From: a virus
Strand: one strand, 5' to 3'
DNA length: 60,637 nt
IMG/VR virus record: IMGVR_UViG_3300028854_000022
Coordinates: 1-60,637 of that record
Part shown: positions 1 through 13,163 of the stretch, piece after piece
Layout of the letters: each line of letters begins with the position of its first letter
How positions within the stretch are numbered: the first letter of the stretch is position 1
Program-made: the position numbers and the translations under genes
Notes under the pieces: generated by a model
What the model was told of the DNA's origin: nothing
Seen by the model: only the letters and a program-made list of their open reading frames with translations
The model's database searches: none

Positions 1-235
1 TCCATCCAGACGGCAATCCTGTAAAACTAGAGCAAGTAATTGCTCCATTAGATGCGGTTGCTAATACAGGACAGTTAGCCGCAATGCCGGCGCCAGTAAA
101 AAGATTTGCCCAAGCTCCTGCGGCGGTATTTGCTCCGGTTCCCCCATTATGGATGTTAACGGTTGTTATATTTTGGGCAATTAAATTAATGGGCAATAAA
201 CATAAAAATAAGAATAATAATTTTTTAGCTAACAT
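1..235 (-). CDS. Fibre-like protein with Sec-type N-terminus (partial)
   Basis: The frame starts at the ATG at 233-235 and is open to the left edge, so the C-terminus lies outside. The N-terminus has two Lys followed by a long Leu/Phe/Cys stretch ending in LIAQ, a typical signal peptide. A Gly/Ala/Asn/Thr-rich stretch containing NGGTGANTAAGAW follows, a phrase common in tail fibres and host adhesins. It overlaps the end of the upstream fibre gene by 11 bases, so the two are probably co-transcribed. Role inferred: receptor-binding fibre or fibre-associated protein. A signal peptide is odd for a cytoplasmically assembled fibre. Confidence 0.6.
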   Translation of the reverse strand, partial: MLAKKLLFLFLCLLPINLIAQNITTVNIHNGGTGANTAAGAWANLFTGAGIAANCPVLATASNGAITCSSFTGLPSGW

Positions 236-875
236 AATAAGCCTTCAATATAGAATTTGTTTGCGGTGCTGTAAACATAGTAATAGTAGTTCCCGATAAC
301 GTGTAATCGTCATTTTGTGATAAGACTACCCCGCCTAACGTCAAAATAAGTGAATCCGGCGTTGACGGTAAAGATGCCAAATTAAAAATTAAGTTGACAC
401 CATTTATAATGCCGGATACCGTAGTATTTCCATATACGGTTGAACTTCCAGTAGATATTAAATACTGCCAATAAAAAAAATATAAATTATCGTCCGGCTG
501 CGGAGCTTCTGTAAAAGTAATTGTGCTTCCGGCGATAGAATATCCTACCCCAGGTATTAATGGAAAATTTTTCCATACAATTAATGTATTTCCCATCGGC
601 GTGGATGGAAGATGAAAAACATTATTGCTTCCATCAACTGAGCCGGACGGAACTCCGGCAATCGGAAGACCTGAGCCGGAACTAGTTTCCGTTGAATTAG
701 GAACAGTAACAATTTCGGTGTTGCCAGAATATGGGGCGCCGTCGACGATGGTTCCATTTCCAACAAATAATCGTTGAGTATCTACAGCCCAGCAAAGTTC
801 ACCTTTCGCCAATTGCGGCAAATTCTGCTGAAGGCCCGAACGAATTTGAATTCTAGAATTTTGCTTGATAGCCAT
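225..875 (-). CDS. Tail fibre / virion adhesin protein
   Basis: 216 aa from the ATG at 875, chosen because GAGAGG lies just upstream; the frame itself extends further. Residues 1-45 (RIQIRSG, LPQLAKGELCWAVDT, RLFVGNG) match the N-terminal module common to phage fibre and hyaluronidase-type proteins, where a repeat-type head precedes the fibre. The rest is two similar beta-rich repeats (NVFHLPSTP... and NLIFNLASLPSTP...) with TITFTEAPQ/TITMFTAPQ motifs, suggesting a duplicated small beta domain. A TATAAATA late motif lies 17 bases upstream. It is a structural late protein; its exact place in the virion is unknown. Confidence 0.7.
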   Translation of the reverse strand: MAIKQNSRIQIRSGLQQNLPQLAKGELCWAVDTQRLFVGNGTIVDGAPYSGNTEIVTVPNSTETSSGSGLPIAGVPSGSVDGSNNVFHLPSTPMGNTLIVWKNFPLIPGVGYSIAGSTITFTEAPQPDDNLYFFYWQYLISTGSSTVYGNTTVSGIINGVNLIFNLASLPSTPDSLILTLGGVVLSQNDDYTLSGTTITMFTAPQTNSILKAYYVS

Positions 876-891
876 TAAGATTCCTCTCTTA

Positions 892-899
892 TATTTATA
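892..899 (-). promoter_or_regulatory. T4-type late promoter (TATAAATA)
   Basis: A perfect TATAAATA on the minus strand, 17 bases before the fibre gene start at 875. In T4 this octamer is the whole recognition site of gp55-RNA polymerase, and a gp55 homologue is encoded at 49.2-50.05 kb. Confidence 0.6.
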
Positions 900-1067
900 T
901 CCAACTCGCAAATGTAAAACCAATAACTAGAGTTAGTAGATATAAGCGAGTTGTGTGGCCTGCCGCATAAATGTGGCGGCTCACGTTAATGAATATTTTT
1001 TACAAAGAGAAACGACCAATCACTAAGATTGGCCGTTTCTAACTACCCGCGTTTAAAAGATTAATTT

Positions 1068-1616
1068 CTATGGACGATAAATTGCAACAGAAGTTGGCGT
1101 TTCCTTAAAAGTAACACCGGTAAGGTATGCCTGTTTATTTGTGGCTTCTAAAATTTGCGGCGCTAGTATATAGAAAAAATGTTCTGCCAAAGATTCCGCC
1201 GTAGGAAACTCATTAATAATATATGTTTTACCAAATGCAGTTTTTCCTGACCAAAACGAATGTTGTCGAACAGTTTCCGTAATTTTATTTACCCAATCAG
1301 AAAAGATAATGCCCTTAGCTGAGGGCAAGGACTCTTCATATGCCAGACCAACATACTTCGCATCTTGTAAGGAAATAATCATGGCATGATCGCACATTGC
1401 ATCAATATGGGTCATCATTAAATTTTTAAGAATTCCATAATCAAGAACCATTTCAGTTTGCGGGCCGCTACCGAATAACTCACCCACCATTTCTGCAATA
1501 ATCACACCCGAATGCCCGTGACAGGATGAACATTTCCCTGGTCCGCCTTCTGCATTTTGGTGTCTTGCCACTCGGTGGCCGTAATCTATTCGAATTTCTT
1601 TTGAAATAATATTCAT
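1068..1616 (-). CDS. queD: 6-carboxy-tetrahydropterin synthase (QueD)
   Basis: 182 aa. QueD converts dihydroneopterin triphosphate to 6-carboxytetrahydropterin, the second step toward preQ0/7-deazaguanine. Zinc ligands H14, H33 and H35 are visible (GHR and CHGH), with C29 in the C-x3-HGH arrangement expected for the catalytic cysteine. The DYG-x7-HID-x-CDHA block and the late EFPTAESLAE stretch also match the family. Phages use this pathway to modify DNA with deazaguanines or to supply queuosine; no QueC, QueE, FolE or DpdA is in the window, so the product's use is unclear. Start: ATG at 1616, with TAGGAG nearby. A possible extended -10 (TGCTATAAT) lies just upstream. Confidence 0.85.
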   Translation of the reverse strand: MNIISKEIRIDYGHRVARHQNAEGGPGKCSSCHGHSGVIIAEMVGELFGSGPQTEMVLDYGILKNLMMTHIDAMCDHAMIISLQDAKYVGLAYEESLPSAKGIIFSDWVNKITETVRQHSFWSGKTAFGKTYIINEFPTAESLAEHFFYILAPQILEATNKQAYLTGVTFKETPTSVAIYRP

Positions 1617-1647
1617 ATATCTCCTAGTAATTTATTATAGCATACAG

Positions 1648-2082
1648 TTACAAAAATATCACATCAAAATTGTACCCACGCAATTCTTTTTCTGGATCAG
1701 CAAAAATAACGGTATTCCCATTTGAAAATGTCATACGGTCATTCCTATTACTTTCCAAAAAATTCGCCGAAATAAAGACCGCCCACACCTTTAAATTCTC
1801 TTGAATTATACTGGGTAAAATACCGCGGTTCTCGCAAAATATAAAAATAGGTTTATCCGAATTACTTAAAATATACTGCTGTAGTAATTCAATCGACCAT
1901 TCACCAGGAAAGAATATCTTTGATGAATATCTCATTGAAAATGCAAACAACCTCGACAATTGGTGTTTAATTCGATTTTCAAGATGAGTTAACTTTTCAT
2001 CATCCCAACTATCCGGATTAGAGAACGGCGATAATAAATTTAGAAGAGTTTCAATTTCTTCCCTATCTAATTCTATTTTCAT
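1648..2082 (-). CDS. Hypothetical protein, 144 aa
   Basis: Not recognised. The N-terminal third is helical and acidic (LDREEIETLLNLLSPF). The C-terminus is a hydrophobic/glycine block, GNTVIFADPEKELRGYNFDV, with an alternating beta pattern. It abuts the upstream exonuclease gene with one base between them and ends about 30 bases before queD's start, so it is likely in the same minus-strand operon. It could be a small ATPase-fold or terminase-like remnant, but no Walker A is visible. Confidence 0.6.
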   Translation of the reverse strand: MKIELDREEIETLLNLLSPFSNPDSWDDEKLTHLENRIKHQLSRLFAFSMRYSSKIFFPGEWSIELLQQYILSNSDKPIFIFCENRGILPSIIQENLKVWAVFISANFLESNRNDRMTFSNGNTVIFADPEKELRGYNFDVIFL

Positions 2083-2083
2083 A

Positions 2084-2656
2084 TTATCCTCGAATCTTTC
2101 GAATCATTTCAATATGCAGCCTTCCTAAATTAATAGCATCCGTTACTGCGCTATGCGGTTTTCCTTCGAATGTTAAATGAAGATATTTTAACGCATTTGC
2201 TAACGTCAATTTTTTCTTGATCGAATAGTTACTTCGAAAAATAACACCCAAATCCCAAATACCGGTATTACCCCAAGGATTTTCAATATTATCTTTTAAA
2301 CATTGCTCAATGATAGCATCATTGTCCGATCCCCATGCGTAAGAAACTTTTCCTCGCGGAGAAAATTCATTTCGAATGGTATTCATAACATCCGAAAATC
2401 GTCTCCCTTCTTTTAATAATAATTCTTTTGTTATTCCGGTGAGGTTAGTACAATACTCAGATACTTCAAAATCTTTATAATTCGGACGAATATAATAATT
2501 AGCTGTTCGAGTAATTTTCAAATCGTATGAGTCAATTTCACATATACCGACTTGAATGATATGCTTCGATTGGCCCAATGGGCATTTTCCATCCGGCCAG
2601 CATAACATTTCTAAATCCATAAAACTAATTTTTTGTGATGATAAATTCTTTGTCAT
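2084..2656 (-). CDS. DEDD-family 3'-5' exonuclease
   Basis: 190 aa. The RNase T/DnaQ-like fold is shown by three Exo motifs: Exo I FMDLEMLCW near residue 12, Exo II around SYAWGSDNDAII near residue 105, and a C-terminal HSAVTDAINLGRLH, the H-x4-D signature of DEDDh enzymes. Probably trims single-stranded DNA or RNA during replication, repair or host-nucleic-acid turnover. A second exonuclease of this superfamily is at 18726-19271. The ATG at 2656 is close behind the small gene ending at 2667. Confidence 0.75.
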   Translation of the reverse strand: MTKNLSSQKISFMDLEMLCWPDGKCPLGQSKHIIQVGICEIDSYDLKITRTANYYIRPNYKDFEVSEYCTNLTGITKELLLKEGRRFSDVMNTIRNEFSPRGKVSYAWGSDNDAIIEQCLKDNIENPWGNTGIWDLGVIFRSNYSIKKKLTLANALKYLHLTFEGKPHSAVTDAINLGRLHIEMIRKIRG

Positions 2657-2666
2657 TACATCTTTC

Positions 2667-2861
2667 TTATTCAGATAATTTCATAATCAATAATGCAGAC
2701 TTGGCTTCGTGAGCAGTAATATATCGATCCTTCAACCAAAACCAATCTTCAAGCATGTTAACTTGAATACCAAATGTATTGCCTTCGGCTGGATATATTC
2801 TAGTAGGATATGCGTTAACAACGGCATCTGATAGATACCAGGTTGATTGAAGTTTTGGCAT
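2667..2861 (-). CDS. Tiny 'RLSE-tail' paralogue, 64 aa
   Basis: Member of a family I define here: proteins of about 50-90 aa that end in [KR]-[LF]-[ST]-E or close variants, preceded by a helix rich in Ala/Leu. Two flavours exist. Flavour 1 (this one) ends EAxxALLIxKLSE. Flavour 2 has an IYPxAK-like N-terminus and an AWxxAxxxI helix before the tail. Members lie in tandem, often with ATGA start/stop overlaps. Function unknown; no known fold recognised. Here the tail is HEAKSALLIMKLSE, and the middle is Trp/Tyr rich. Confidence 0.6.
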   Translation of the reverse strand: MPKLQSTWYLSDAVVNAYPTRIYPAEGNTFGIQVNMLEDWFWLKDRYITAHEAKSALLIMKLSE

Positions 2862-2863
2862 AA

Positions 2864-3019
2864 TTACTCGGATAATTTCATAATCAATAATGCAGAATTG
2901 GCTTCTGCTTCAGATGCAAACGGGCCAGATCGTACATACCATTGTCCATTAAAATAAGGACGTATACACCATCTAATTAGCCCGGTTATAGTTTTATAAC
3001 TTTCTATCTTATATTTCAT
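2864..3019 (-). CDS. Tiny RLSE-tail paralogue, 51 aa
   Basis: Found by reading the minus strand. It starts MKYKIESYKT and ends EAEANSALLIMKLSE, nearly the same last 9 residues as the downstream neighbour at 2667-2861, pointing to a recent duplication. It begins inside the upstream member (4-base overlap) and stops 2 bases before the next start, so the run is translationally coupled. Confidence 0.6.
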   Translation of the reverse strand: MKYKIESYKTITGLIRWCIRPYFNGQWYVRSGPFASEAEANSALLIMKLSE

Positions 3020-3267
3020 TCTGATAGTCGATCATCTAGTTGATCGCTCACCGTGGCAATTCGGCCATAAATATCTACCGTGTCTATCCATCGTTCTAAC
3101 GGGAAAAAGAATACTCTATGCATACGGCAACTTCGTATTTTATAACAACGGTTGGTATTAGTACACGCCATTACTATGCACTCTTCTCGCGTGCGAGCGG
3201 AAAACCTATCAAAAATATTGCCGTATACTACAACCCGATCTCCAATTTGATATTTTGTTTCATTCAT
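3016..3267 (-). CDS. RLSE-tail paralogue, 83 aa
   Basis: Start set at the ATG at 3265-3267 (MNETKYQIGDRVVVYG), which has a GGA-type ribosome site; an in-frame TTG lies 12 bases upstream. The N-terminal half (YQIGDRVVVYGNIFDRF) looks like a small beta-barrel (SH3/KOW-like) segment, unlike other members. The last residues DQLDDRLSE carry the family tail. It may be a fusion of a different N-terminal domain to the common tail. Confidence 0.6.
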   Translation of the reverse strand: MNETKYQIGDRVVVYGNIFDRFSARTREECIVMACTNTNRCYKIRSCRMHRVFFFPLERWIDTVDIYGRIATVSDQLDDRLSE

Positions 3268-3288
3268 TTGTGAATCCAATCTGTTTTA

Positions 3289-3525
3289 TTATTCGGACAA
3301 TTTTAAAATTAGTAATGCAGCTTCCGCTTCTTCCTTCGTTGTATATAACTCTGGGCTAAGATAATACCAGCCGCCCCGCAATATTGAATGAAATCGAGTT
3401 TGAATTCCATACCAATTACCCAGCTCTTCTATTCGATATTCTCTAATTAATTTCGGCAATGGCTGTATCTCGGAAAACGTAAAATTTTTGCACATCTCAA
3501 TTATTAATTTGGTATCAAGATTCAT
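3289..3525 (-). CDS. RLSE-tail paralogue, 78 aa
   Basis: Flavour-1 member ending TKEEAEAALLILKLSE. Its start overlaps the stop of the upstream member by 3 bases. The middle contains a Trp/Tyr/Gly segment (RGGWYYLSPELY) preceding the tail helix, as in the 51-aa and 64-aa members. Confidence 0.65.
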   Translation of the reverse strand: MNLDTKLIIEMCKNFTFSEIQPLPKLIREYRIEELGNWYGIQTRFHSILRGGWYYLSPELYTTKEEAEAALLILKLSE

Positions 3526-3683
3526 TCGGATAATTTTTCTATCAAAATATAATTTTTAGCTTCGATTTCAGTATCAAATACTCGTAAAAATTGGGCGAGC
3601 CCTCGATAATCTAAGCGATAAACTAGCCATCTATCGCATATTAATATAGGTGGCAAAATTTCATATGTATATTCAGTATTCAT
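3522..3683 (-). CDS. Tiny RLSE-tail paralogue, 53 aa
   Basis: Starts MNTEYTYEIL and ends EAKNYILIEKLSE. First gene of this run, directly after the tmRNA 3' hairpin. Its TGA overlaps the next ATG. Found by hand translation. Confidence 0.6.
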   Translation of the reverse strand: MNTEYTYEILPPILICDRWLVYRLDYRGLAQFLRVFDTEIEAKNYILIEKLSE

Positions 3684-3689
3684 ACAATT

Positions 3690-4049
3690 TGTATACCCCG
3701 TTTCTTTTACATAGGCGGGGTCACCCTACGGCGCACAGTTTTTAGGCTAGTGCGAGCTCGCGATTGCTAATTTTTACAGGGTACGTAAAAATCTTGGTCG
3801 CGCCATTGACGATTGAATCGGCAATTATACATATCATTTTTCAATTATGGGCGAAAATAACAAAGACCCAAGCCGTCCACATGACTTTCATTTATCCGTC
3901 GAAACCGTGACGCGCCCTAGTAGAATACTGGGGTGTAACACCACATCCATCTAATACGAAACTATCTAACTAGTTCAGTATTCTTTTGGACGCGCGGAGA
4001 GTTGAACTCCGGTCCGCATAAAGAAATTCATGCTTCGTACGACTCTAAC
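3690..4049 (-). ncRNA. ssrA: Circularly permuted tmRNA (two-piece ssrA)
   Basis: Read on the minus strand, the acceptor half comes first. 4011-3995 forms a T-arm with a 5-bp stem CGGAG/CTCCG and loop TTCAACT, followed by acceptor 3' strand CGCGTCC (3994-3988). A 70-base intervening segment follows, containing the 9-bp inverted repeat AGAATACTG/CAGTATTCT. Then comes the coding half: acceptor 5' strand GGGCGCG (3917-3911, pairing 7 bp with one G-U), the tmRNA-type D-region GGTTTCGACGG, and a tag frame ending SNRELALA-stop at 3742. No CCA is encoded after the discriminator A. The order acceptor-spacer-coding is that of two-piece tmRNAs of alphaproteobacteria, cyanobacteria and some betaproteobacteria. 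Exact ends, the resume codon and pseudoknots were not resolved. Confidence 0.85.
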
Positions 4050-4709
4050 TTATGCAAATTTTTTTTCGTTGATCATAATTGGTTTCGAATACAATTCTTT
4101 CATTACTTTTGCATAACCGACTGAATTAGTACACAATGTCTTAAGATGATCCCGATATAATCTTTTTCTGAGTATTGCATGATGCCCTTCATCCAAATTA
4201 GTTAATAAACCACCATTAGTTAAAAGTCCAAAAATATCGATTAATTTAGATTCAGCTTGAAATGCTTCTGCTTCAGTTAAACTTCCTTTAACTCGAAATA
4301 CTATATGCTTTTCATTTAACGAATTTATAGATTGCAAAATTTTTCGATGTGTTTCATTTCGCCGCGAATTTTTATCACGATCATTTACTCCTTTTCCTAT
4401 ATAAAAAGGAACATACTCCATACCCAGGCTAGCGGCAAACGCGTCTTTTGCTTTTTCTAAATCAAGATCAAACAATGGATTCAAGTGAGCATACACAAAA
4501 TATTTCTTTTCGTTTGATAATTCTAAATCTTCATAAATCGAGCTAATATCGGAATTCCATATAGAATTATATGCTTCGAATTTTGGACCCTGCCTAACGA
4601 TATTCTCCGCTCCTAGACCATTCTTTTCTAACGCTCGAATTCTAGATTTTAAATATCGAACTTTACCTTTCAGCGAATCAATCGAATTCCAATTAACCTT
4701 AATATTCAC
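4050..4709 (-). CDS. GIY-YIG family endonuclease (homing-type)
   Basis: 219 aa from a GTG at 4707-4709, chosen because GAGG precedes it and the late motif lies between it and any earlier start. GIY-YIG core: YFVYAHLNP near residue 80, then VPFYIGKG, an Arg/His segment (RRNETHRKIL) and the metal-binding Glu in AFQAESKLIDIFG. The spacing resembles the LEM-3-like GIY-YIG proteins frequent in T4-type phages. An N-terminal coiled-coil segment (SLKGKVRYLKSRIRALEK) may serve DNA binding. Its stop codon abuts the tmRNA, suggesting a free-standing homing nuclease established beside the RNA gene. Confidence 0.75.
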   Translation of the reverse strand: MNIKVNWNSIDSLKGKVRYLKSRIRALEKNGLGAENIVRQGPKFEAYNSIWNSDISSIYEDLELSNEKKYFVYAHLNPLFDLDLEKAKDAFAASLGMEYVPFYIGKGVNDRDKNSRRNETHRKILQSINSLNEKHIVFRVKGSLTEAEAFQAESKLIDIFGLLTNGGLLTNLDEGHHAILRKRLYRDHLKTLCTNSVGYAKVMKELYSKPIMINEKKFA

Positions 4710-4723
4710 TTTTATTTCCTCAA

Positions 4724-4731
4724 TATTTATA
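4724..4731 (-). promoter_or_regulatory. T4-type late promoter (TATAAATA)
   Basis: Perfect octamer on the minus strand, 15 bases before the GTG start of the GIY-YIG gene. It would also transcribe the tmRNA that follows. Confidence 0.55.
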
Positions 4732-4763
4732 GTATACAACAATAATAAAAATATAGCAACAAC

Positions 4764-5045
4764 TTATTTTACATATTGCCCAATACTAACACCTAATTGG
4801 CCGGTGTCTGATGAATTCAAACTCTCTTTAATTTCGATTATTAATTTAGGTATATCTAACAAGTCGGAATCCTCTAGGAAAAAGCACTTAAAATCTCCGG
4901 CATCATTAATTTGAAGAGCGAGCTTATCTTCCCAACCGGTGTCATTACTACCATATCTAGCGTAGGTCAATACATGATGGCAACGCGCCGGCGGCGGAAT
5001 ATCGGCTTCTACTGCTTTCAGAAAATCGATTAAAAATTGTCGCAT
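4764..5045 (-). CDS. Conserved phage hypothetical, 93 aa
   Basis: The central part, YARYGSNDTGWEDKLALQI followed by FKCFFLEDSDL, resembles a short protein often seen in phages and prophages, but no function is known to me. An acidic helix (IPKLIIEIKESL) follows. AGGAGTGAT lies directly before the ATG at 5045. Confidence 0.6.
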   Translation of the reverse strand: MRQFLIDFLKAVEADIPPPARCHHVLTYARYGSNDTGWEDKLALQINDAGDFKCFFLEDSDLLDIPKLIIEIKESLNSSDTGQLGVSIGQYVK

Positions 5046-5234
5046 ATCACTCCTAATATTAAGAAGATATCGAACGTTGGTATTTGCGCCTTACAAATAT
5101 GATACACCTTAAATAAGTCTAATTTAAGAATATTTGCAATCGGTGATACTCCATTCAGGATATCGATTTCTATCCTCGAGCTCGATACCATCTTAATTCT
5201 TTTAAATCAACTGCATAAAATCATATTATTTTTC

Positions 5235-5316
5235 ATATTTAAAATTGGGGGCGCACGAAGCGATAATCAACATGCGCCGCCTCCACCACCGAATCAGAAA
5301 GGATTCGGACTTATTA
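5235..5316. other. Two hairpins in a gene-free stretch
   Basis: Between 5046 and 5316 I see no convincing ORF. Near its right end are a GGCGCA...TGCGCC hairpin within a GC-rich patch and a strong CCGAATC-AGAAAG-GATTCGG stem-loop. On either strand these could be part of a structured RNA or a terminator; there is no T-run. The CCTCCACCA text suggests a tRNA end, but no T-arm is present. Confidence 0.3.
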
Positions 5317-5544
5317 CTACATACTTAATCTTTCGAGCAATAACCAATCTTCTGCTTCCTTTTTTGTAGAGCACGAATGAATAACCGTAGGAGGAATACA
5401 CTCGTCGCATGGATTTCGACTATTTGAAAAATCGTAGGTTTTAATAACGTTCCATTTATTATCTACCCGATCATCTTTAACGATCTTCAAGGAAGTTTTC
5501 ACAATGAAGTGGTAATTCACCTCGGATTTATCACACCTATTCAA
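5317..5544 (-). CDS. RLSE-tail paralogue, up to 75 aa
   Basis: Ends TKKEAEDWLLLERLSM, a flavour-1 tail with Met in place of Glu at the end. The longest frame begins with TTG overlapping the upstream gene. An internal GTG (VNYHFIVKTS) preceded by CCGAG is an alternative. Contains a CDEC pair that could bind metal. Confidence 0.55.
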   Translation of the reverse strand: MNRCDKSEVNYHFIVKTSLKIVKDDRVDNKWNVIKTYDFSNSRNPCDECIPPTVIHSCSTKKEAEDWLLLERLSM

Positions 5545-5704
5545 ATTTCATACCTTTCTTGGGAGTGTACGTCACCAACCAGGCATAACTGCCATCTTTA
5601 TTTTTTGACAAATTTAGATATCCGGCAACTTTTTCTTTTCTGAGAGAATCAATAAAATCAAGGGCGGCCTTGGTCGTTTCAAATTCAGATGTCTTCTGCT
5701 TCAT
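5537..5704 (-). CDS. Small protein, 55 aa
   Basis: Starts MKQKTSEFETTKAALDF, a helix, followed by LNLSKNKDGSYAWLVTYTPKKG, a predicted beta hairpin. AAGGATATT precedes the ATG at 5704. It overlaps the next gene by 8 bases. It lacks the RLSE tail although it lies among members of that family. Confidence 0.5.
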   Translation of the reverse strand: MKQKTSEFETTKAALDFIDSLRKEKVAGYLNLSKNKDGSYAWLVTYTPKKGMKFE

Positions 5705-5715
5705 AATATCCTTTC

Positions 5716-5956
5716 TTATTCTGATAAGCTTTCGATTAAAATCGCTGATTCGGCTTCTTTCAATGAATCATATATTGCATATGTCACCGGGGGCAATAAG
5801 CATACCGGTTTTTATATCATAATGTTTAATTTCCACAGGATATTTTTCATTTTCCTTCGGCAACAATTTAAATGCGGCGCGATACCCATCCCAGATAGGC
5901 GGCCTACAAATCTTACCAAATGCAAAGTTTAAAGAAATTTTCTTCTTACCTTGCAT
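5716..5956 (-). pseudogene. RLSE-tail paralogue split by a frameshift
   Basis: The first frame (MQGKKKISLNFAFGK to KHYDI) stops early at 5768. One base out of frame, reading continues KPVCLLPPVTYAIYDS and ends in a perfect flavour-1 tail EAESAILIESLSE at 5716. The two parts join at an AAAAA run (ATATAAAAACC), so a 1-base homopolymer change is the simplest explanation. It may be a real inactivation, slippage or a sequencing error. The start overlaps the preceding gene (ATGCAAGGTAA). Confidence 0.55.
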
Positions 5957-6236
5957 ATCGCTTTCCCGCAGGAACACCAGTTAACCACGCAAGATTAATT
6001 TTTCGAATATTGGAAACTTGCTCGCCATTATCTAATAGACCATTCCAGATTGCGGAAAGCTCGCGGGCTGTTTGCTCGGGTACATCAATTGCGATAAATT
6101 CATTTGTTGCGCCATTATAAACATCGAAGGTATCAATGGGCGCAGAACTGTTTTGCGCAGGTACAACAATTACATGATTACCTGCTTCACGAATTTTAAT
6201 AGCGATTTCAGAATCAATTTCGTTCATCCAGTTCAT
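5946..6236 (-). CDS. Hypothetical protein, 96 aa
   Basis: Not recognised. Acidic N-terminal helix, then a beta-rich middle (NHVIVVPAQ) and a helix (PEQTARELSAIWNGLLDNG). Its C-terminus (INLAWLTGVPAGKRYAR) overlaps the next start by 11 bases. It is the first gene behind the promoter at 6272-6300, and AGGAAGCAGGACAT lies at its ATG. Confidence 0.55.
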   Translation of the reverse strand: MNWMNEIDSEIAIKIREAGNHVIVVPAQNSSAPIDTFDVYNGATNEFIAIDVPEQTARELSAIWNGLLDNGEQVSNIRKINLAWLTGVPAGKRYAR

Positions 6237-6271
6237 AATGTCCTGCTTCCTGTGATTTTACTCACATTACC

Positions 6272-6300
6272 AGTGTAAACTATTTAGCATGAAAAGTCAA
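6272..6300 (-). promoter_or_regulatory. Sigma70-type promoter
   Basis: Minus strand TTGACT - 17 bases - TACACT, 36 bases before the ATG at 6236. Confidence 0.65.
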
Positions 6301-6314
6301 GCAACATCCCAAAA

Positions 6315-6521
6315 TTATAGAGAAAATCGTTCAATCAAATTACGATCTCGAATAAACTCTTCGGCTTCCTTAAGAGAATTCTTCCCATAAAATCGATAAT
6401 ACTGAACTACTATCCTCCTACCGAAGGCCGAAGATTCGTCGTCCGAATATCTAGACTGAACTACAATTCGATATAGTGGGTTTTTATTCTTCGTTCCTGT
6501 TAGTTCGTAAAAATCAGGCAT
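6315..6521 (-). CDS. RLSE-tail paralogue, 68 aa
   Basis: Begins MPDFYELTGTKNKNPLYRIVV and ends LKEAEEFIRDRNLIERFSL. The tail is a divergent version (ERFSL). It follows the 94-aa gene without a gap. Confidence 0.55.
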   Translation of the reverse strand: MPDFYELTGTKNKNPLYRIVVQSRYSDDESSAFGRRIVVQYYRFYGKNSLKEAEEFIRDRNLIERFSL

Positions 6522-6806
6522 TTATTCCTCTTCAAACAATTTCTTCAAAATAGGTAATGCACGACGATAAAACTTGGCGCGAACACGCGCATGATTCTTT
6601 CTCCAAAGAGCTAAAAAGTTTTCGTGGCGGTTCGAGTAATTCGGCGTTCCATATAGTTGCACGTTAAATCGAATCCGCTCAAGAACTCGGGAGGCCGCCT
6701 GGTCCGCTAATACTGATCCCAGGCCTTTCGATGTTACGTAATTTTTTCCGAAACACGAAACAACAACGGTCTTTTTAACCTTCATATTTTTACCGTAATG
6801 ACTCAT
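6522..6806 (-). CDS. Hypothetical basic protein, up to 94 aa
   Basis: Arg/Lys-rich, with helical C-terminal half (HARVRAKFYRRALPILKKLFEEE). Two starts are possible: 6806, overlapping a tiny frame, or Met8 (MKVKKTVVVSCFGKNY) at 6785. No family recognised; the charge suggests nucleic-acid contact. Confidence 0.5.
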   Translation of the reverse strand: MSHYGKNMKVKKTVVVSCFGKNYVTSKGLGSVLADQAASRVLERIRFNVQLYGTPNYSNRHENFLALWRKNHARVRAKFYRRALPILKKLFEEE

Positions 6807-6842
6807 TCAAACACATCCATTTCTGCCTCAGTAATGAGGCAT

Positions 6843-7043
6843 TTATTCCTTTTCATATCCTTCAAACCACGGACCCATTCGGCGAGTTGCCTCCTTACCA
6901 GACGGGGTTTGCGTGGTCGCCGAACTAGTATCTTCACGCTTGCACCATTCTTGTGCTTGCTCCAAAGTATATCCTCGATACATGGTTCGTTTCCGCTTAT
7001 TGGAATCAGCATAATACCGAACGATTTTGTAGGTTTCAGCCAC
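6843..7043 (-). CDS. Conserved small phage protein, 66 aa
   Basis: GTG start at 7043 with GGAAAGG upstream. The pattern YKIVRYYADSNKRKR...TLEQAQEWCKREDTSS...GPWFEGYEKE is one I recognise as a widespread small phage protein of unknown function, characterised by TxLxxAQxxC and a terminal GPWFxGYE. It starts 4 bases after the CCA-enzyme stop, so it is in the same operon. Confidence 0.65.
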   Translation of the reverse strand: MAETYKIVRYYADSNKRKRTMYRGYTLEQAQEWCKREDTSSATTQTPSGKEATRRMGPWFEGYEKE

Positions 7044-7046
7044 AGA

Positions 7047-8366
7047 TTATACCTTTCCGGAAGAAGCGGTAACCAACGCTACCGCTTCTTCCCTTGTAGT
7101 AACTACGCCTTCGAGTTGAGCAGTTTCGACCGCTTCTAGCAAAGTCTTGAATACCGGGCCTGCCTTAAATCCCATAGCAAGCAAATCGTTTCCGGTGAGC
7201 AAACGAACGGGATGAAGTTCATCCTTCATGTTGTCGCGAAACCCACGGCAAAAATTGTTTGCGGTGAGATCGCCATTACTACCAAGGCTGTCAACCCGGT
7301 TAAGTTCAAGCAGTTCAGAAAAATTTTCCATACGAACAAACCGCTTCATCTTTGACAACGACATCTTTTCCGTGTTAAAAAACCGCATATGATTTTCAAC
7401 CAAAGACGACACCGTGCCGACAACTTCATTTGAAAACCGAAAATCACGAAGCAGCCGTTCAGCCATACGAGCCCCAACGTGCTCATGCCCGTGAAACTGA
7501 TTATGTCCGGTCTTTTCATTTGTCTTTGCTGTGACCGGCTTCCCTACATCGTGAAGCAAGGTTGCAAGCGCCAACGTAAGAGAGCAGCCGGATTCGAGCA
7601 TAGAAAGCATCTTCATTGTATGCTGCCACACATCGCCTTCCGGATGCCACATTGAATTCTGCGTAACCCCATGCATATTGCACAGTTCCGGCATAAAATG
7701 AACTAGCAAACCGGTGGTGTCCATTGTCTGAAAAGCTACCTGTACATTACCGCCAGTAAGAATCTTTGCCAGTTCACCAGCAACACGATCAGCGGGCAAA
7801 GTCGTAACATCCTTCGAACGCAATGTCATTGCGGACACGGTAAGCGGATCAAGCATGAACCCCAAACGAGCTGCAAATCGAACGGCTCGCAGCAGGCGCA
7901 AAGCATCTTCTTGAAACCGATCGCTAGGATTGCCGACCGTGCGCAAAACCTTATTTTCGAGGTCGGCAAGGCCATTAACAAAGTCAAATACCTTGCCCGA
8001 TTCGTCCATCAGAAGTGCATTGACTGTAAAATCACGGCGCTTAACATCTTCCCTAGGATCCGTTGTAAACTTAACAGAATCCGGGCGGCGATTGTCAGAA
8101 TACGCACCATCCTCGCGGAAGGTTGCAACTTCGAACTGCTCACCATTCACATTAACAACCGAAACGCCAAAATTCTTACCAACCAATTTCGAGGTAGAAA
8201 ACAATTCGGTGACCTGATCAGGAGTTGCACTCGTGGCCAGATCCCAATCATGAACCGGAAGATTCAACAGTGAATCTCGCACGCAACCACCCGCGAAGTA
8301 GGATTCAAATCCCGCATTCTTAAGGGTGACTAGTGCTACCATCGCATTGTGATTCATCTCAACCAT
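7047..8366 (-). CDS. cca: CCA-adding enzyme (tRNA nucleotidyltransferase) with HD domain
   Basis: 439 aa, class II CCA enzyme. Head: FAGGCVRDSLL near residues 24-34, the metal pair in HDWDLATSA near residues 40-45, and RRDFTVNALLMD. Neck/body: DALRLLRAVRFAARL. C-terminal HD phosphohydrolase domain: H-x-LLHDVGKP with a downstream HGHEHVGA, as in bacterial enzymes of this type. It adds or repairs CCA at tRNA 3' ends without a template. Here it may also finish the phage tmRNA, whose CCA is not encoded. The first ATG lies about where transcription from 8373-8401 should begin, so the message could be leaderless; Met4 is an alternative start. Confidence 0.92.
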   Translation of the reverse strand: MVEMNHNAMVALVTLKNAGFESYFAGGCVRDSLLNLPVHDWDLATSATPDQVTELFSTSKLVGKNFGVSVVNVNGEQFEVATFREDGAYSDNRRPDSVKFTTDPREDVKRRDFTVNALLMDESGKVFDFVNGLADLENKVLRTVGNPSDRFQEDALRLLRAVRFAARLGFMLDPLTVSAMTLRSKDVTTLPADRVAGELAKILTGGNVQVAFQTMDTTGLLVHFMPELCNMHGVTQNSMWHPEGDVWQHTMKMLSMLESGCSLTLALATLLHDVGKPVTAKTNEKTGHNQFHGHEHVGARMAERLLRDFRFSNEVVGTVSSLVENHMRFFNTEKMSLSKMKRFVRMENFSELLELNRVDSLGSNGDLTANNFCRGFRDNMKDELHPVRLLTGNDLLAMGFKAGPVFKTLLEAVETAQLEGVVTTREEAVALVTASSGKV

Positions 8367-8372
8367 GCTTAA

Positions 8373-8401
8373 AGTATATCAACTTTCGGTTAGTTTGTCA
8401 A
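8373..8401 (-). promoter_or_regulatory. Sigma70-type promoter
   Basis: Minus strand TTGACA - 17 bases - TATACT, ending 7 bases before the cca ATG. The repeat element at 8414-8545 lies immediately behind it. Confidence 0.75.
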
Positions 8402-8413
8402 GAGAAAATTACT

Positions 8414-8545
8414 GGTTGAAAACAAAGGACTTAAATCACCCCAGTATGCCCTGATTCAATTCCGCCATACCAGACCACAACGGGCCCATATTGGGGCCCT
8501 GGTGGGGGAATTATAATATATCGACCCTTTTAAATCAATGACTTA
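8414..8545. repeat. Three-copy intergenic regulatory element, copy 1
   Basis: Related to 12596-12725 and 27913-28046. Shared blocks in this orientation: TTGAAAACAAAGGACTTA at the left, a CCCCA-x-TATG block, an inverted ATATTGGGGCC block in the middle-right, and CCTTTTAAATCAA at the right end. The ends are imperfect inverted repeats. This copy sits directly upstream of the cca promoter. Confidence 0.7.
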
Positions 8546-8728
8546 ATCGGTATCGTGGTCCTCATCGTTGGCCTTGGCAATAAGATCTCGCATAGAAGTC
8601 TTATAACGAGCGGGTTTTTCATGCTTTGGTGTGATTGCAAACGAAGCCTTAGGTGTACCAATACGATCTCGGGCATTCGATTTCACTTGAGCAACAGCAC
8701 TGAAAACATCCTTTTTACGCTTCGACAT
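8543..8728 (-). CDS. Small basic protein, 61 aa
   Basis: MSKRKKDVFSAVAQVKSNAR... with an acidic end (NDEDHDTD). A strong CGGAGAAAATA site precedes the ATG, and the start overlaps the stop of the membrane protein upstream. No family recognised; the Lys/Arg content suggests nucleic-acid or polymerase binding. Confidence 0.6.
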   Translation of the reverse strand: MSKRKKDVFSAVAQVKSNARDRIGTPKASFAITPKHEKPARYKTSMRDLIAKANDEDHDTD

Positions 8729-8922
8729 TATTTTCTCCGATTTCTTAAGGTTTTATAAAGAACAAATCCAGCAACAATGCCAGCAAAATTAGCTGCTCGT
8801 TGTTCGGGAGTCCAATGAAAACATCCGGCCAATTGGCTAATCAAAAACATCAAAAAACCAAAGGACACAAGCGCAATTCCTCCGAATACAATCCAAACAA
8901 TTGCACCTAAAATTAAATTCAT
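8728..8922 (-). CDS. Small membrane protein, 64 aa
   Basis: One or two hydrophobic segments: residues 4-30 (LILGAIVWIVFGGIALVSFGF onward) and a weaker one near 46-57 (FAGIVAGFVLY), ending in Arg/Lys. AAGGAG precedes the ATG. Function unknown. Confidence 0.65.
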   Translation of the reverse strand: MNLILGAIVWIVFGGIALVSFGFLMFLISQLAGCFHWTPEQRAANFAGIVAGFVLYKTLRNRRK

Positions 8923-8942
8923 TTGATCTCCTTACTTAAATA

Positions 8943-8971
8943 AGTATAACAAATATCAGTCTAAATGTCAA
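8943..8971 (-). promoter_or_regulatory. Sigma70-type promoter
   Basis: Minus strand TTGACA - 17 bases - TATACT followed by TATTTAAGTAAGGAG, a version of the leader seen after several other promoters here. Confidence 0.75.
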
Positions 8972-9000
8972 CCGAATATAAAGTCTTTGCTATAAACTGT

Positions 9001-9612
9001 TTACAGTTCTGAAATCGAAAGTTCATTTAGACATTGAAACTCTGTGCCTTCAATTGTCTTTTCCCAGTCGGCATGGTAATGCCCAAAATTCCAATATTTC
9101 GGCTGATATGCCGAAAACATTGCGGACAGTGCTTGCCCTGTTCGAGTCGGATAAACTTCCGGATTGCCATACAATGAATGCCGAAGTAAAATGTGCGCTG
9201 CTACTTTCGTGGGGCAATCATGTGAGAGCACAATTTCTGGTCGTTCATTGATATAAAGTTCAAATGCATCTTCGAGTTCCTTAATCGAAAGCTCTTCATC
9301 GTACCACCAGGTTAATCCCGATCGGCGAAATCTTTGATCGATACTCCAAGCGCCAGACAAGTAAAATACTTTTCGATCATCGATAATTTTAACACCATAA
9401 TCACCCAGATAATTGGGGTGTGCTCTTGCTACTGCGGGGTTATCATGATTTCCGCGAATAAAATAAAAATTTTCAGGGAAAGTTGGAAGCGTAGATTGCC
9501 CTGGAAAACCGACACCAAAATCCCCCACCTGAATAATTGTCTTGCCGGGATTTTCCGTTACAATCTTTTTGCATTCCTTAAATTTTCCATGTACGTCACC
9601 AATTAGCAGCAT
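9001..9612 (-). CDS. Metallophosphoesterase, 203 aa
   Basis: Calcineurin-like fold: GDVHGKF near residue 5, GDFGVG near 31, RGNHDNP near 55, LSHDCP near 130 and GHYHADW near 178 supply the dinuclear metal ligands. The compact size resembles phage serine/threonine phosphatases and Ap4A-type hydrolases; the substrate cannot be read from sequence. GAGAGGAAAAAGT precedes the ATG. Confidence 0.85.
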   Translation of the reverse strand: MLLIGDVHGKFKECKKIVTENPGKTIIQVGDFGVGFPGQSTLPTFPENFYFIRGNHDNPAVARAHPNYLGDYGVKIIDDRKVFYLSGAWSIDQRFRRSGLTWWYDEELSIKELEDAFELYINERPEIVLSHDCPTKVAAHILLRHSLYGNPEVYPTRTGQALSAMFSAYQPKYWNFGHYHADWEKTIEGTEFQCLNELSISEL

Positions 9613-9660
9613 ACTTTTTCCTCTCGGTATAAATGTTAACGGAAATATTTCCGATAGTTT

Positions 9661-9951
9661 CTACTCGTGAAATACCGGTGATTCGATCTCGGGCGGAGCC
9701 CCGTTTTCATTTGAAACATGCTTCCACGTTAATTTACCGGTTCGAATTTCTTCCAATGCAATCTTTGGTAGCCGGCAAAAAGGTATTTCTTCTCGGCCCG
9801 GATTAAATTCTTTTGAAAGTCCATGCTTAATCGACGCTCCGTTGATAAGCTGATTTGTTCGGGCCATTACCATTGTTGCCAGCAGATATCTACTACCAAC
9901 CTTTTCTAAATGTGATTGGATTGTTTTGATTTTTTCTTTTTCGTTTAACAT
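9661..9951 (-). CDS. RNA polymerase omega-subunit-like protein
   Basis: 96 aa. Residues 18-40 (GSRYLLATMVMARTNQLINGA) match the conserved omega helix that clamps the beta-prime C-terminus. LPKIALEEIRTGKL near residues 61-74 matches the second conserved omega block (normally ALEEIxxGKL). Length is that of bacterial RpoZ. If it assembles into host polymerase, it could replace host omega and alter stability or promoter choice, alongside the phage gp55 and omega's usual link to ppGpp. Function here is inferred from resemblance only. Confidence 0.75.
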   Translation of the reverse strand: MLNEKEKIKTIQSHLEKVGSRYLLATMVMARTNQLINGASIKHGLSKEFNPGREEIPFCRLPKIALEEIRTGKLTWKHVSNENGAPPEIESPVFHE

Positions 9952-9963
9952 TTTTTCCTTTTG

Positions 9964-10743
9964 TTATTCTGAATATACTTCTTCGAATTCAACCTGGTCG
10001 TAATACGGATTAACAACTAATTTCGCCATCGGATACCATTGTCCCTTGTGCAAAAATCTATCGTCGACTACTACATAATTCGTTAACTTTTCAAAAAATT
10101 GCGGAAGATGTTTTACAAAATATTGATGCAATGGAATTGCAACCTGCCGCATTGAAGGATGTGCAGTTTCCGGTGTTCGTTTATAGAAAAAATTCCACCA
10201 GCTACCTAAATTTAGACTTGCAGCATATTCTGTCTTCACGCCTTGAGGAAGCCAATACCGAGCCTTTTCTGGGGTCCACCCACGAGTCCGCCATTTTGCG
10301 TATCGGGAATCATCGGCTCGTGTATCACTAACAAATTCTGCCCAATCATCATTGTTATCTGAGGAATATTCATTAACCCACGGTGGCAAAATATATGATG
10401 CACCTTTATTTAACTCGCCTTCTTTTGCATAATCAACGTACCTTGTACTTTCCTGCAGGTAGGCCGCCATTCTGTGACGCACGCCTTCGTGGGAGACTCC
10501 TCGATCTGTAATGAATGTCGACGAAATCATTCGATGCTCGGCAATTCCGGTATGCCGATTTGTATTGAAAAGTCTACCGGGAAATGTGAGATAGGAATCA
10601 TCGGTCATTCGACCTTCTGATTTATAACACTTTCTGGAAAACATTTCAATTTTCTTTAACATGTGTTGCGCCAATGTCATTCCATTAGGCAACAGCATTT
10701 CGAGGTCGTCTTCGACGATAACAACGGGTTTAATGATTCTCAT
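9964..10743 (-). CDS. thyX: Flavin-dependent thymidylate synthase ThyX
   Basis: 259 aa from the ATG at 10743 (MRIIKPVVIVEDD). It makes dTMP from dUMP using methylenetetrahydrofolate, FAD and NADPH. The ThyX motif is RHRMAAYLQESTRYVDY (RHR-x7-S-x-RY form) near residue 92. A second basic/aromatic region follows (KTEYAASLNLGSWWNFFYKR), and the C-terminal MRQVA helix supports the family. It cooperates with the phage dUTPase and thymidine kinase encoded elsewhere in the window. Confidence 0.9.
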   Translation of the reverse strand: MRIIKPVVIVEDDLEMLLPNGMTLAQHMLKKIEMFSRKCYKSEGRMTDDSYLTFPGRLFNTNRHTGIAEHRMISSTFITDRGVSHEGVRHRMAAYLQESTRYVDYAKEGELNKGASYILPPWVNEYSSDNNDDWAEFVSDTRADDSRYAKWRTRGWTPEKARYWLPQGVKTEYAASLNLGSWWNFFYKRTPETAHPSMRQVAIPLHQYFVKHLPQFFEKLTNYVVVDDRFLHKGQWYPMAKLVVNPYYDQVEFEEVYSE

Positions 10744-10754
10744 ATATAATGTCC

Positions 10755-10979
10755 TTAGTTCACAATTGGTACCCATTTACCAGAAAACCATGTGCCTGGA
10801 TTATACCATACCGATGTAGATACGTATTGCTCAGTACGCACAAGAGATAACGAACGACTTCCGGTATTCAAAAATTTGCTGCAAGCCGGACAACGGTCGT
10901 ACGGATCATACCCACTGCAACAGTTCCGATAAAGATGTGCGCCACAGGCGCCGCATTGCATAACAAATCGTCTATCCAT
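10755..10979 (-). CDS. Small zinc-ribbon protein, 74 aa
   Basis: CGACGAHLYRNCC followed by CPAC gives two Cys pairs (C-x2-C near residues 9-12 and 31-34) typical of a zinc ribbon, with a Trp-rich C-terminus. Probably binds nucleic acid or protein. It lies between ThyX and another CxxC protein in one operon. Confidence 0.6.
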   Translation of the reverse strand: MDRRFVMQCGACGAHLYRNCCSGYDPYDRCPACSKFLNTGSRSLSLVRTEQYVSTSVWYNPGTWFSGKWVPIVN

Positions 10980-10991
10980 TTAAATGGCCTT

Positions 10992-11207
10992 CTATTCCGG
11001 TATTTGAACTAATTGCTTTTCTAGAAAATCCCCACAGGTAAGACAGGTATTCGTGTAGAGCAATACATGCCCATCTGACCGTTCGTTATACAGTGAATCG
11101 CGATATATTCTTACAGATTTAAATTCCGAAACAAGTTTCCATTTATCTTTATCAAACGTATGACGATGCGGCGATGCGGTTTCAATCAATCCCCAAAATA
11201 GCTTCAT
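10992..11207 (-). CDS. Small CxxC protein, 71 aa
   Basis: Not recognised. A single CLTCGD pair near the C-terminus; the N-terminus (MKLFWGLIETASPHRH) is not clearly a membrane segment. AAGGAAAAATC lies before the ATG. Confidence 0.5.
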   Translation of the reverse strand: MKLFWGLIETASPHRHTFDKDKWKLVSEFKSVRIYRDSLYNERSDGHVLLYTNTCLTCGDFLEKQLVQIPE

Positions 11208-11230
11208 ATGATTTTTCCTTGAATTACCAT

Positions 11231-11267
11231 AAAAATAACGGGCTGAATCTGTCAGCCCGTTATTTTA
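11231..11267. terminator. Rho-independent terminator
   Basis: Perfect 15-bp stem (AAAATAACGGGCTGA and its complement) with a 5-base loop and an oligo-T side on both strands. It ends the H1-like gene's transcript and separates it from the 71-aa gene. Confidence 0.85.
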
Positions 11268-11280
11268 ATTGATTTTCGAA

Positions 11281-11925
11281 TTAGGCTACGTCGTTGACGG
11301 TTGCAACCTGGGGAGTGGAGGTTAGTGCAGATTGCGCCTTGGCGCGGATCGAATGACCCTTGCGAGCGGAATTGACAATGGTAGTAACCAGCGAGTCGGC
11401 GGCAACCGGACGCTTCTCAATGGGCTCAGGACCTACCGGCTTGACCGGCGTCGGAAGTACGGGAGCAACCGGCTTCGCAGCAGCCTTTGCGGCCGCCTTC
11501 GTTGCCTTCTCGGCATCCTTCACAATCTTTGCATTAGCACGGGCGAGCTCCTTCGCTGCCTTTGCCGCGGCACGCTCAAATACCTTCGCGGCCTTTGCCG
11601 TTTCCTTGGCGAGCTTCGCAGCAGCCTTCTCTTCATCGGTCTTCGTTGCCTTGGTAGCGCGAGGAGTGCTACGCACAACCAATGAAGTTTCCTTGGAGGC
11701 AAGTGCTTCGAGATTAACGCCCACGGGCTTCGCTTCCTGCAGGAATGCAATGGCATCAGTCTTGGTCATAGGATTGGGCAGCTCGACCAGTACAACATCG
11801 GTGTCGCCATAACGCTCCAGCATCTTAACACGTCCAGCAACGTCCTGCGCGAAACGCGCCTTGTAGGAACCGTTAGAAAGTGAAGTACCGGCAACAGTGA
11901 ACAGCTTTGTGTCTACATTACTCAT
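11281..11925 (-). CDS. Histone-H1-like Ala/Lys-rich protein, 214 aa
   Basis: The N-terminal ~75 residues form a folded beta/alpha region (KLFTVAGTSL, DTDVVLVELPNPMTKTDAIAFLQ). Then about 85 residues of low-complexity Lys/Ala/Glu helix with repeated KAAKxxxKAAAKAAA, a PVxP stretch and a short ordered tail. This resembles histone H1/HU-tail proteins that compact DNA. It has its own sigma70-type promoter and terminator, so expression is independent and probably early. An alternative is a coiled structural linker. Confidence 0.6.
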   Translation of the reverse strand: MSNVDTKLFTVAGTSLSNGSYKARFAQDVAGRVKMLERYGDTDVVLVELPNPMTKTDAIAFLQEAKPVGVNLEALASKETSLVVRSTPRATKATKTDEEKAAAKLAKETAKAAKVFERAAAKAAKELARANAKIVKDAEKATKAAAKAAAKPVAPVLPTPVKPVGPEPIEKRPVAADSLVTTIVNSARKGHSIRAKAQSALTSTPQVATVNDVA

Positions 11926-12035
11926 AATTGAATTTGTCCTTTTCGGTTGGGGCGCTGCTTTGCAGTCACCGGGTTAACTTTTATAACGGAATGATCAGTC
12001 GTCATTTCCGTTACGTTTATCTCATCAACATAATC

Positions 12036-12064
12036 AGTATAGCAAACTTGGATTTACTTGTCAA
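12036..12064 (-). promoter_or_regulatory. Sigma70-type promoter
   Basis: Minus strand TTGACA - 17 bases - TATACT with TTTGC before the -10. It drives the H1-like gene through a leader of roughly 100 bases. Confidence 0.75.
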
Positions 12065-12067
12065 CCG

Positions 12068-12211
12068 TTACCTACCAAAAATTACAGAAAAAAATCCAAT
12101 TACGGCAGATGTAATTACGCAACACATCGCGGTAATGGGAAAGTGTGTTAATAGTGCGCACGCTGAGGTAAGCACCAACACCTGCGAACACCAGAGCAAT
12201 CGATTTCTCAT
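12068..12211 (-). CDS. Tiny membrane protein, 47 aa
   Basis: Found by hand. MRNRLLWCSQVLVLTSACA... is almost entirely hydrophobic with two likely membrane segments (residues 10-22 and 25-45), a positive start and a GR end. AGAGG lies 5 bases before the ATG, and a sigma70-type promoter lies 28 bases upstream. Early expression and size suggest a membrane-acting host-takeover peptide; unproven. Confidence 0.55.
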   Translation of the reverse strand: MRNRLLWCSQVLVLTSACALLTHFPITAMCCVITSAVIGFFSVIFGR

Positions 12212-12238
12212 GAAACCTCTTTCTCATTCACTAAACCA

Positions 12239-12267
12239 ATTATAGCAAAATTCGAATACATTGTCAA
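12239..12267 (-). promoter_or_regulatory. Sigma70-type promoter
   Basis: Minus strand TTGACA - 17 bases - TATAAT with TTTTGC before the -10 and GGTTTAGTGAATGAG after it. It serves the 47-aa membrane protein. Confidence 0.75.
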
Positions 12268-12274
12268 CCAAAAT

Positions 12275-12538
12275 TTATTCGGGAACCACTTCCCCGATAA
12301 GCCTAAACTGCGAGAGCCGGTCTTGCGCAGTGATTTTCCCCATCGAAATAGCTCTAGAACGATCCGCGCCATACTGAATTTTGTTGGGTTCTGCGTCGGA
12401 CATATTGCGCCATGAGAAGCCAGTCACATACCAGTTGCAAACAAAGGACTTATTTCGCCCTTTCCCACGATACATGGGAATCTGAATGATGAACTTTTTC
12501 GGGGCAACTGATTGATCCGGCATAGTTGTTCTCCTCAC
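12275..12538 (-). CDS. Hypothetical protein, 87 aa
   Basis: Not recognised. Probable start at Met1 or Met6 (MPDQSVAPKK); GTGAGGAG precedes the first. Beta-rich with a basic loop (RGKGRNKSF). It follows its own early promoter. Part of its coding DNA (around 12438-12462) matches the left block of the three-copy intergenic element, probably by chance or ancient recombination. Confidence 0.55.
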   Translation of the reverse strand: MRRTTMPDQSVAPKKFIIQIPMYRGKGRNKSFVCNWYVTGFSWRNMSDAEPNKIQYGADRSRAISMGKITAQDRLSQFRLIGEVVPE

Positions 12539-12545
12539 TGAAATA

Positions 12546-12574
12546 ATTATAGCAAATGACGATCACGATGTCAA
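12546..12574 (-). promoter_or_regulatory. Sigma70-type promoter
   Basis: Minus strand TTGACA - 17 bases - TATAAT, followed by TATTTCAGTGAGGAG, the shared promoter-leader with a built-in ribosome site. Confidence 0.8.
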
Positions 12575-12595
12575 CTGCAATTTTTACATCGGTAA

Positions 12596-12725: not shown

Positions 12726-12757
12726 ATCATTTTTTGTGTTTTCCGATCATTTTTCGC

Positions 12758-12786: not shown

Positions 12787-12808
12787 TATTTCAGTGAGGA
12801 AATAAGAT

Positions 12809-13108: not shown

Positions 13109-13115
13109 TTTTCGG

Positions 13116-13144: not shown

Positions 13145-13163
13145 TATTTCAGTGAGGGAATGG

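Follow-up and report, generated by a model that had tools for sequence, protein, structure and literature searches.

Background

Genes for tmRNA are reported from 402 of 18,146 public phage genomes and correspond to 133 unique structures, 53 of which ARAGORN calls two-piece, with 50 of these 53 being marine or aquatic (PMC9004378). A further source lists 79 bacteriophage tmRNA sequences (PMC11915505), and huge phages with tmRNAs, SmpB and CCA-adding enzymes have been described (PMC7162821). Here we describe a tmRNA gene on a 60,637-base virus record (the window, by which we mean the whole stretch of DNA that was analysed), a fragment of an RaK2/Atu_ph07-like jumbo myovirus. The baseplate wedge protein of the window has matches in 68 phage records, every one below 60% identity; the best matches (31-34% identity) are jumbo phages including fENko-Kae01, Munch, RaK2 and Atu_ph07. 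Its matches to families of baseplate hub proteins, clamp loaders and SbcCD-like nucleases fit a T4-like myophage. Positions 1-18366, tmRNA included, are identical in metagenome records 3300028859_000030 and 3300029915_000009, which represent the same virus, so the tmRNA region is not a one-off assembly error. A direct DNA search of 50,697 phage records with the window tmRNA gave no match even at E 10, and isolates were therefore reached through the baseplate wedge protein and through the tmRNAs of relatives. Elsewhere in the window, 225-923 matches Mtd_N (major tropism determinant N-terminal domain; 31.4 bits, cut-off 26.3) and is possibly a receptor-binding protein.

A permuted tmRNA gene in a jumbo phage

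The minus strand at 3690-4071 carries a circularly permuted tmRNA gene (Table 1). Rfam family RF04321 (tmRNA_permuted) matches 3742-4044 on this strand with 60.3 bits (E 3.3e-9), above its curated cut-off of 47, and is the sole Rfam family above its gathering score across the whole window. ARAGORN reports a tmRNA* at 3651-4076 with the tag ADSIVNGATKIFTYPVKISNRELALA. An earlier note on this DNA, made from its letters, had proposed a circularly permuted tmRNA and had named tmRNA covariance models and ARAGORN as ways to check it; the tag called by ARAGORN is the frame that it had read, and all elements that it placed on the minus strand (T-arm, acceptor strands, 70-nt stretch, inverted repeat and a frame ending SNRELALA-stop) are there. 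RF01850 (beta_tmRNA) also aligns end to end over 3690-4071, terminal hairpin included, but its 34.6 bits (E 5.4e-9) fall short of the gathering score of 84 curated for betaproteobacterial tmRNA.

Table 1. Coordinates of the permuted tmRNA gene, its parts and neighbouring genes in the window.
Feature	Position	Strand	Basis or remark
Permuted tmRNA (ssrA) gene, full extent	3690..4071	-	RF01850 alignment; RF04321 core 3742-4044
Acceptor (3') piece: P2 strand, T-arm, acceptor strand, discriminator A	3987..4055	-	5' end estimated
T-arm CGGAG-TTCAACT-CTCCG	4011-3995	-	Sequence
Acceptor 3' strand CGCGTCC	3994-3988	-	Sequence
Discriminator A; next bases AAA, no encoded CCA	3987	-	Sequence
Intervening segment, expected to be cut out	3918..3986	-	Sequence; 9-bp closing inverted repeat
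9-bp inverted repeat AGAATACTG/CAGTATTCT	arms 3922-3930 and 3976-3984	-	Inside intervening segment
5' acceptor strand GGGCGCG	3911..3917	-	7/7 pairing with CGCGTCC, third pair G-U
GGTTTCGACGG, D-loop region of tRNA-like domain	3896..3906	-	RF04321 alignment, sequence
Tag reading frame ADSIVNGATKIFTYPVKISNRELALA-stop, 26 codons, resume codon GCC	3742..3822	-	ARAGORN, translation; ends SNRELALA-stop
3' terminal hairpin ACCCCG...CGGGGT of coding piece	3695..3721	-	RF01850 alignment, sequence
CCA-adding tRNA nucleotidyltransferase homologue	7047..8366	-	Profile matches; possible partner for CCA-less tmRNA
DnaQ/RNase_T-type 3'-5' exonuclease homologue, syntenic downstream neighbour	2084..2656	-	Profile matches, synteny with relative G008
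PTPS/QueD family protein, syntenic downstream neighbour	1068..1616	-	Profile match, synteny with G008
96-aa ORF, syntenic upstream neighbour	5946..6236	-	Synteny with G008
Homing-endonuclease-like ORF (weak GIY-YIG), abuts tmRNA gene	4050..4742	-	Profile matches

The order of the parts is permuted, with the 3' acceptor strand and T-arm preceding the 5' acceptor strand and tag, and the intervening segment between them. As the earlier note had stated, the acceptor strands pair at seven of seven positions; the third pair is the G-U that, as G3-U70, is the alanine identity pair of the tmRNA acceptor stem. Scored without a bonus for G-U, a seven-pair stem with G3-U70 is found in 56 of 57 distinct permuted tmRNAs (the window's included), the 57th being a mis-call with two pairs; this survey took in 83 loci, five of which (L201, L206, L225, L245 and L246) gave no call. 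Both the RF04321 alignment and cofolding predict that the two pieces also pair beyond the acceptor stem, as P2, and the tag frame opens at a resume codon and closes with a stop codon. These last elements also bear on whether the RNA might act as a decoy, titrating SmpB or blocking the host tmRNA in the manner of the tRNA-like-domain-only RNA of mycobacteriophage DS6A; an RNA of the DS6A kind is reported to inhibit tmRNA (PMC4131195, PMC11915505); the window gene retains the resume region, tag frame and stop that the DS6A form lacks, and we consider a decoy highly improbable.

The stretch between the acceptor strands is 70 nt (3987-3918, counting the discriminator A), and the inverted repeat within it is a common feature of long intervening segments rather than a peculiarity of this gene. 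Of the 40 distinct segments that reach 50 nt, 35 are closed near the acceptor stem by a helix of at least 7 bp and 33 by one of at least 9 bp (one of the 40 segments is probably mis-called), against 5% and 0.7%, respectively, of letter shuffles. Since 35 of 40 share such a helix, we take the 9-bp repeat to belong to a general design that long intervening segments have in common and that probably holds the precursor in shape for cutting. In the phage permuted tmRNA L206 (record G029) the intervening segment (1275-1616) is 342 nt long and contains a 101-aa open frame, for which Pfam gave no match at E 0.001, so that a gene may sit between the acceptor strands.

The fold of the window gene, with the strand taken alone, is only moderately better than that of shuffled sequences (z -1.9 and -2.0; 4 of 100 and 1 of 100 shuffles fold equally well), a weak signal. 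A promoter scan found 12 sites against 11.0 expected, with nothing standing out, and a terminator scan likewise stayed at chance level.

Conservation in a related phage

The closest informative relative (G008, IMG/VR 3300024331_000007, 359,890 bases), whose wedge protein is 68% identical to that of the window, carries a permuted tmRNA gene (L204) in the same slot. As in the window, it is flanked by the homologue of 5946-6236 on one side and those of the RNase_T and PTPS genes on the other, and all of these genes share one strand. Genes near this slot are 51-59% identical to those of the window over their aligned parts; the order differs in part, the homologue of window 225-875 lying on the opposite side and the opposite strand. 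The 96-aa ORF at 5946-6236 has no Pfam, NCBIfam or PHROGs match at E 0.001, the endonuclease-like ORF at 4050-4742 has no counterpart in the 40 kb fetched around the G008 tmRNA, and scans with the endonuclease-like and CCA-enzyme proteins returned only this virus. Together with the virus record itself and the baseplate wedge matches, the synteny upholds the earlier view that the tmRNA is encoded by a phage. It also disfavours an origin as a piece of host ssrA that was picked up when a prophage excised imprecisely or that stayed behind at an attachment site: tmRNA genes are reported as common integration sites (PMC9004378, PMC11915505), but the gene here is complete, is surrounded by genes of a T4-like jumbo phage and has its slot occupied in G008 as well, and we judge such an origin so improbable as to be nearly negligible.

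Beyond gene slot and permuted order, the two genes have in common the G3-U70 pair, a tag of 26 codons and the stop context, where both read GCCTAAAAACT. The acceptor stem of L204 is GTGGGTG/CACCTAC, so that relative to the window pairs 2, 4 and 6 are changed on both sides while G3-U70 is kept. Cofolding the two pieces predicts 41 inter-piece pairs for the window tmRNA and 32 for L204, with P2 helices that are spelled differently; because shuffles reach the pair number (11 of 200 for the window, 29 of 200 for L204) and the energy (8 of 200 and 14 of 200), the cofold pairing on its own gives only moderate support. The tags agree at 6 of 26 residues, a marginal likeness and a weak signal (1.1% of shuffles reach the score and 4.2% the identity). 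L204 differs from the window gene in encoding CCA, in an intervening stretch of 28 nt rather than 70 nt, in a tag ending VAVPVA and in the lack of a PF01743 match in its record.

The window gene has the lowest RF04321 score among the eight hits above cut-off in records selected by the wedge protein, has lost an encoded CCA and specifies an unusual tag, as might be expected of a former tmRNA gene that is decaying and has lost its function. We nevertheless hold decay to be very unlikely: the identity elements persist while the differences from L204 are paired, the tag frame is open as far as the shared stop context, and the gene for a CCA-adding homologue lies close by. The gene is real and probably functional.

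The CCA end and the tag

A permuted tmRNA without encoded CCA is unusual when the intervening stretch is long. Among 42 distinct cases with a stretch of at least 28 nt, the acceptor strand is followed by ACCA in 38, by ACCG or ACCT in 3 and by AAAA in the window only; CCA is absent in 12 of 13 distinct cases with a stretch below 28 nt (all counts from an acceptor table scored with a G-U bonus). Given that the gene does not encode it, CCA would have to be added later, and a candidate enzyme lies 3 kb away: the homologue at 7047-8366 matches NF009814 with 285.7 bits, just under the cut-off of 290, and a PHROG of tRNA nucleotidyltransferases at E 1.7e-75. The corresponding Pfam family, PF01743, matches 10 of the 24 records scanned for it. 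RaK2 and Atu_ph07, neither of which has an RF04321 match, are among the 10; G008, which has a tmRNA, is not. As the homologue thus also occurs in relatives with no detected tmRNA, we treat the enzyme as a plausible rather than a proven functional partner.

The tag of 26 residues is long, the median over 55 distinct ARAGORN tags being 14, with 12 of the 55 having at least 24 (the sample contains some near-duplicates, and L015 and L074 are doubtful). It ends Leu-Ala, and so departs from the Ala-Ala end of the ClpXP ssrA degron. The earlier note had called the ELALA ending unusual, which is correct insofar as the ending is uncommon, but terminal Ala-Ala is absent from 16 of the 55 tags, the window's counted, and some bacterial tags end AVA. 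Terminal Ala-Ala is described as the main ClpXP determinant of the ssrA tag, with changes at the last two residues raising KM and having little effect on Vmax (PMC7652416); on these kinetics, such changes should weaken degradation but need not stop it.

It is reasonable to infer that the window tmRNA rescues ribosomes with a phage-specified tag. A further, tentative reading is that rescue occurs here without destruction, the tag being freed from its role as a degron and the tagged proteins surviving or passing to another protease. The ELALA ending would fit this, as would VAVPVA in the orthologue, ELATA in L202 and L203 (whose tags, like that of L225, were picked by eye and translated, and stand outside the 55-tag count), the number of tags without Ala-Ala, and the weight of that motif for ClpXP (PMC7652416). 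Several phage relatives, however, keep usual endings (ANDSVYALAA, ANDSVFQLAA, ANANTFDYALAA), degradation may be weakened rather than abolished, as noted, and bacteria too have tags without Ala-Ala: a DNA-pattern scan of bacterial sequences gave at least 119 stretches, and among the 80 matches listed 17 yielded an ARAGORN tag, 3 of them ending LAVA and 1 YAVA. We therefore regard rescue without destruction as possible but not probable. The bacterial set is unsuitable as a control for permuted genes, since 16 of the 17 loci lack a seven-pair permuted acceptor and so look one-piece (judged by pairing, not gene by gene). Bacterial tags that end LAVA, without terminal Ala-Ala, occur at L265, L267 and L299, from Helicobacteraceae and Sulfurimonas MAGs. 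At L253 (4565-5030) and L254 (7-484) the tag ANDDSFDVSAISFTGNSVANDSRFALAA resembles two consecutive tag beginnings, ANDDSF... and ANDSRFALAA.

PF00574, a candidate phage protease for tagged proteins, is present in 7 of 16 records, G008 among them, and gave no match in the 105-kb record of this virus, itself a fragment. Two jumbo phages belonging to this group, Atu_ph07 (463656-464201, 268 bits) and Phosso (30245-30790, 262 bits), encode strong ClpP homologues.

Proposed mechanism

The best explanation of these observations as a whole is that a jumbo myophage has a working permuted tmRNA gene in its translation toolkit, and we consider this very probable. The RF04321 and ARAGORN results, the acceptor stem with G3-U70, the synteny with G008, the paired changes and the cofold all speak for a working gene. 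Host tRNA-processing enzymes would cut the 70 nt between the acceptor strands out of a single transcript, leaving two pieces that are predicted to stay paired through a long P2 helix and the acceptor stem. CCA would be added after transcription by the host enzyme or by the phage CCA-adding homologue, and host AlaRS would charge the tmRNA by way of the G3-U70 pair seen in its sequence. Because SmpB was found in none of 50 relative records (one of which is this virus, and many of which are fragments, so that this is not proof of absence), the charged tmRNA would presumably enter stalled ribosomes with host SmpB. Alanine and the 26-residue phage-specified tag would be added, with release of the ribosome at the tag stop codon, and, since the tag ends Leu-Ala instead of Ala-Ala, we predict that tagged proteins are poorer ClpXP substrates than those with the usual bacterial tag. 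A more ambitious proposal is that, in this branch of jumbo phages, the permuted tmRNA serves as a rescue device with a long tag without Ala-Ala, so that ribosomes are released but the proteins they tag escape destruction or are directed to another fate, with CCA addition needed in this virus and available from the phage; we think this unlikely as a whole.

Within a known kind of RNA, the window tmRNA thus presents two oddities, the missing CCA and the missing Ala-Ala, and with them two sharp predictions. This phage tmRNA is strongly diverged and well supported, and a related phage has an orthologue at the corresponding position; it can therefore serve as a clean test case for what phages use tmRNA for (rescue, tagging of host proteins or a changed fate of tagged proteins), a question that has been raised in the literature.

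Occurrence in other phages

Among 50 records selected by the wedge protein (and picked from 76 loci), 8 pass RF04321, one of them (G001) being the same virus; a ninth (G029) was below cut-off at first and reached 101 bits on a rescan of its stretch (L206). Two of 11 isolate relatives pass in a scan under stricter filters that may lose weak matches: Sinorhizobium phage Phosso, and Xanthomonas phage XacN1 with two copies. In a control on 14 well-known genomes RF04321 gave a signal in 5 and exceeded its cut-off in only 1, so that a miss by this model counts for little. In viral contigs, at least 120 stretches fit a DNA pattern for permuted tmRNAs, and among the 80 matches listed 61 viral records pass RF04321 (36 of 50 and 25 of 30), although contigs selected in this way can include prophage or host DNA. 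Seven of 8 isolate stretches picked from DNA hits also pass, and those of Bhz51 and Marzo, both Stenotrophomonas phages, are among the seven; the remaining stretch is part of a standard tmRNA. Permuted tmRNAs are present in isolates of several phage groups. The earlier note had thought a two-piece phage tmRNA unusual; the 61 of 80 viral records, and the two-piece share of unique phage tmRNAs given above (PMC9004378), contradict this, and the phage-encoded permuted tmRNA is a known kind.

The GenBank records of Bhz51 and Marzo annotate a tmRNA feature at the permuted stretch; those of XacN1 (first copy) and Phosso have none at the stretches inspected. In XacN1 (AP018399) the permuted tmRNAs lie at 37231-37530 and 356026-356325 (L224, L226), with a GOLLD RNA about 1 kb downstream. 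We take the tmRNA of Xanthomonas to be one-piece, in which case phage and host forms would differ. The Phosso gene (PV764938, 349596-350198; L225) spans an unusually long 603 nt and is also above the alpha_tmRNA cut-off.

Comparison with known systems

The window gene resembles the two-piece tmRNAs of OM43 phage Melnitz and of SAR11 phages in being phage-encoded and permuted, but those are reported to be nearest to alphaproteobacterial tmRNA and to be accompanied by a glutamine riboswitch (PMC9004378), whereas the best match of the window gene among the older Rfam types is beta_tmRNA. With the betaproteobacterial two-piece form it shares an alignment over its full length, terminal hairpin included, at a score below the gathering score. 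The Menderavirus phages Bhz51 and Marzo, as well as XacN1 and Phosso, have tmRNAs that, like the window's, exceed the RF04321 gathering score; two of these phages, XacN1 and Phosso, are jumbo phages to which the baseplate wedge protein led as well. Unlike the window tag, their tags end IAA or LAA, and Bhz51, Marzo and XacN1, again unlike the window, encode CCA.
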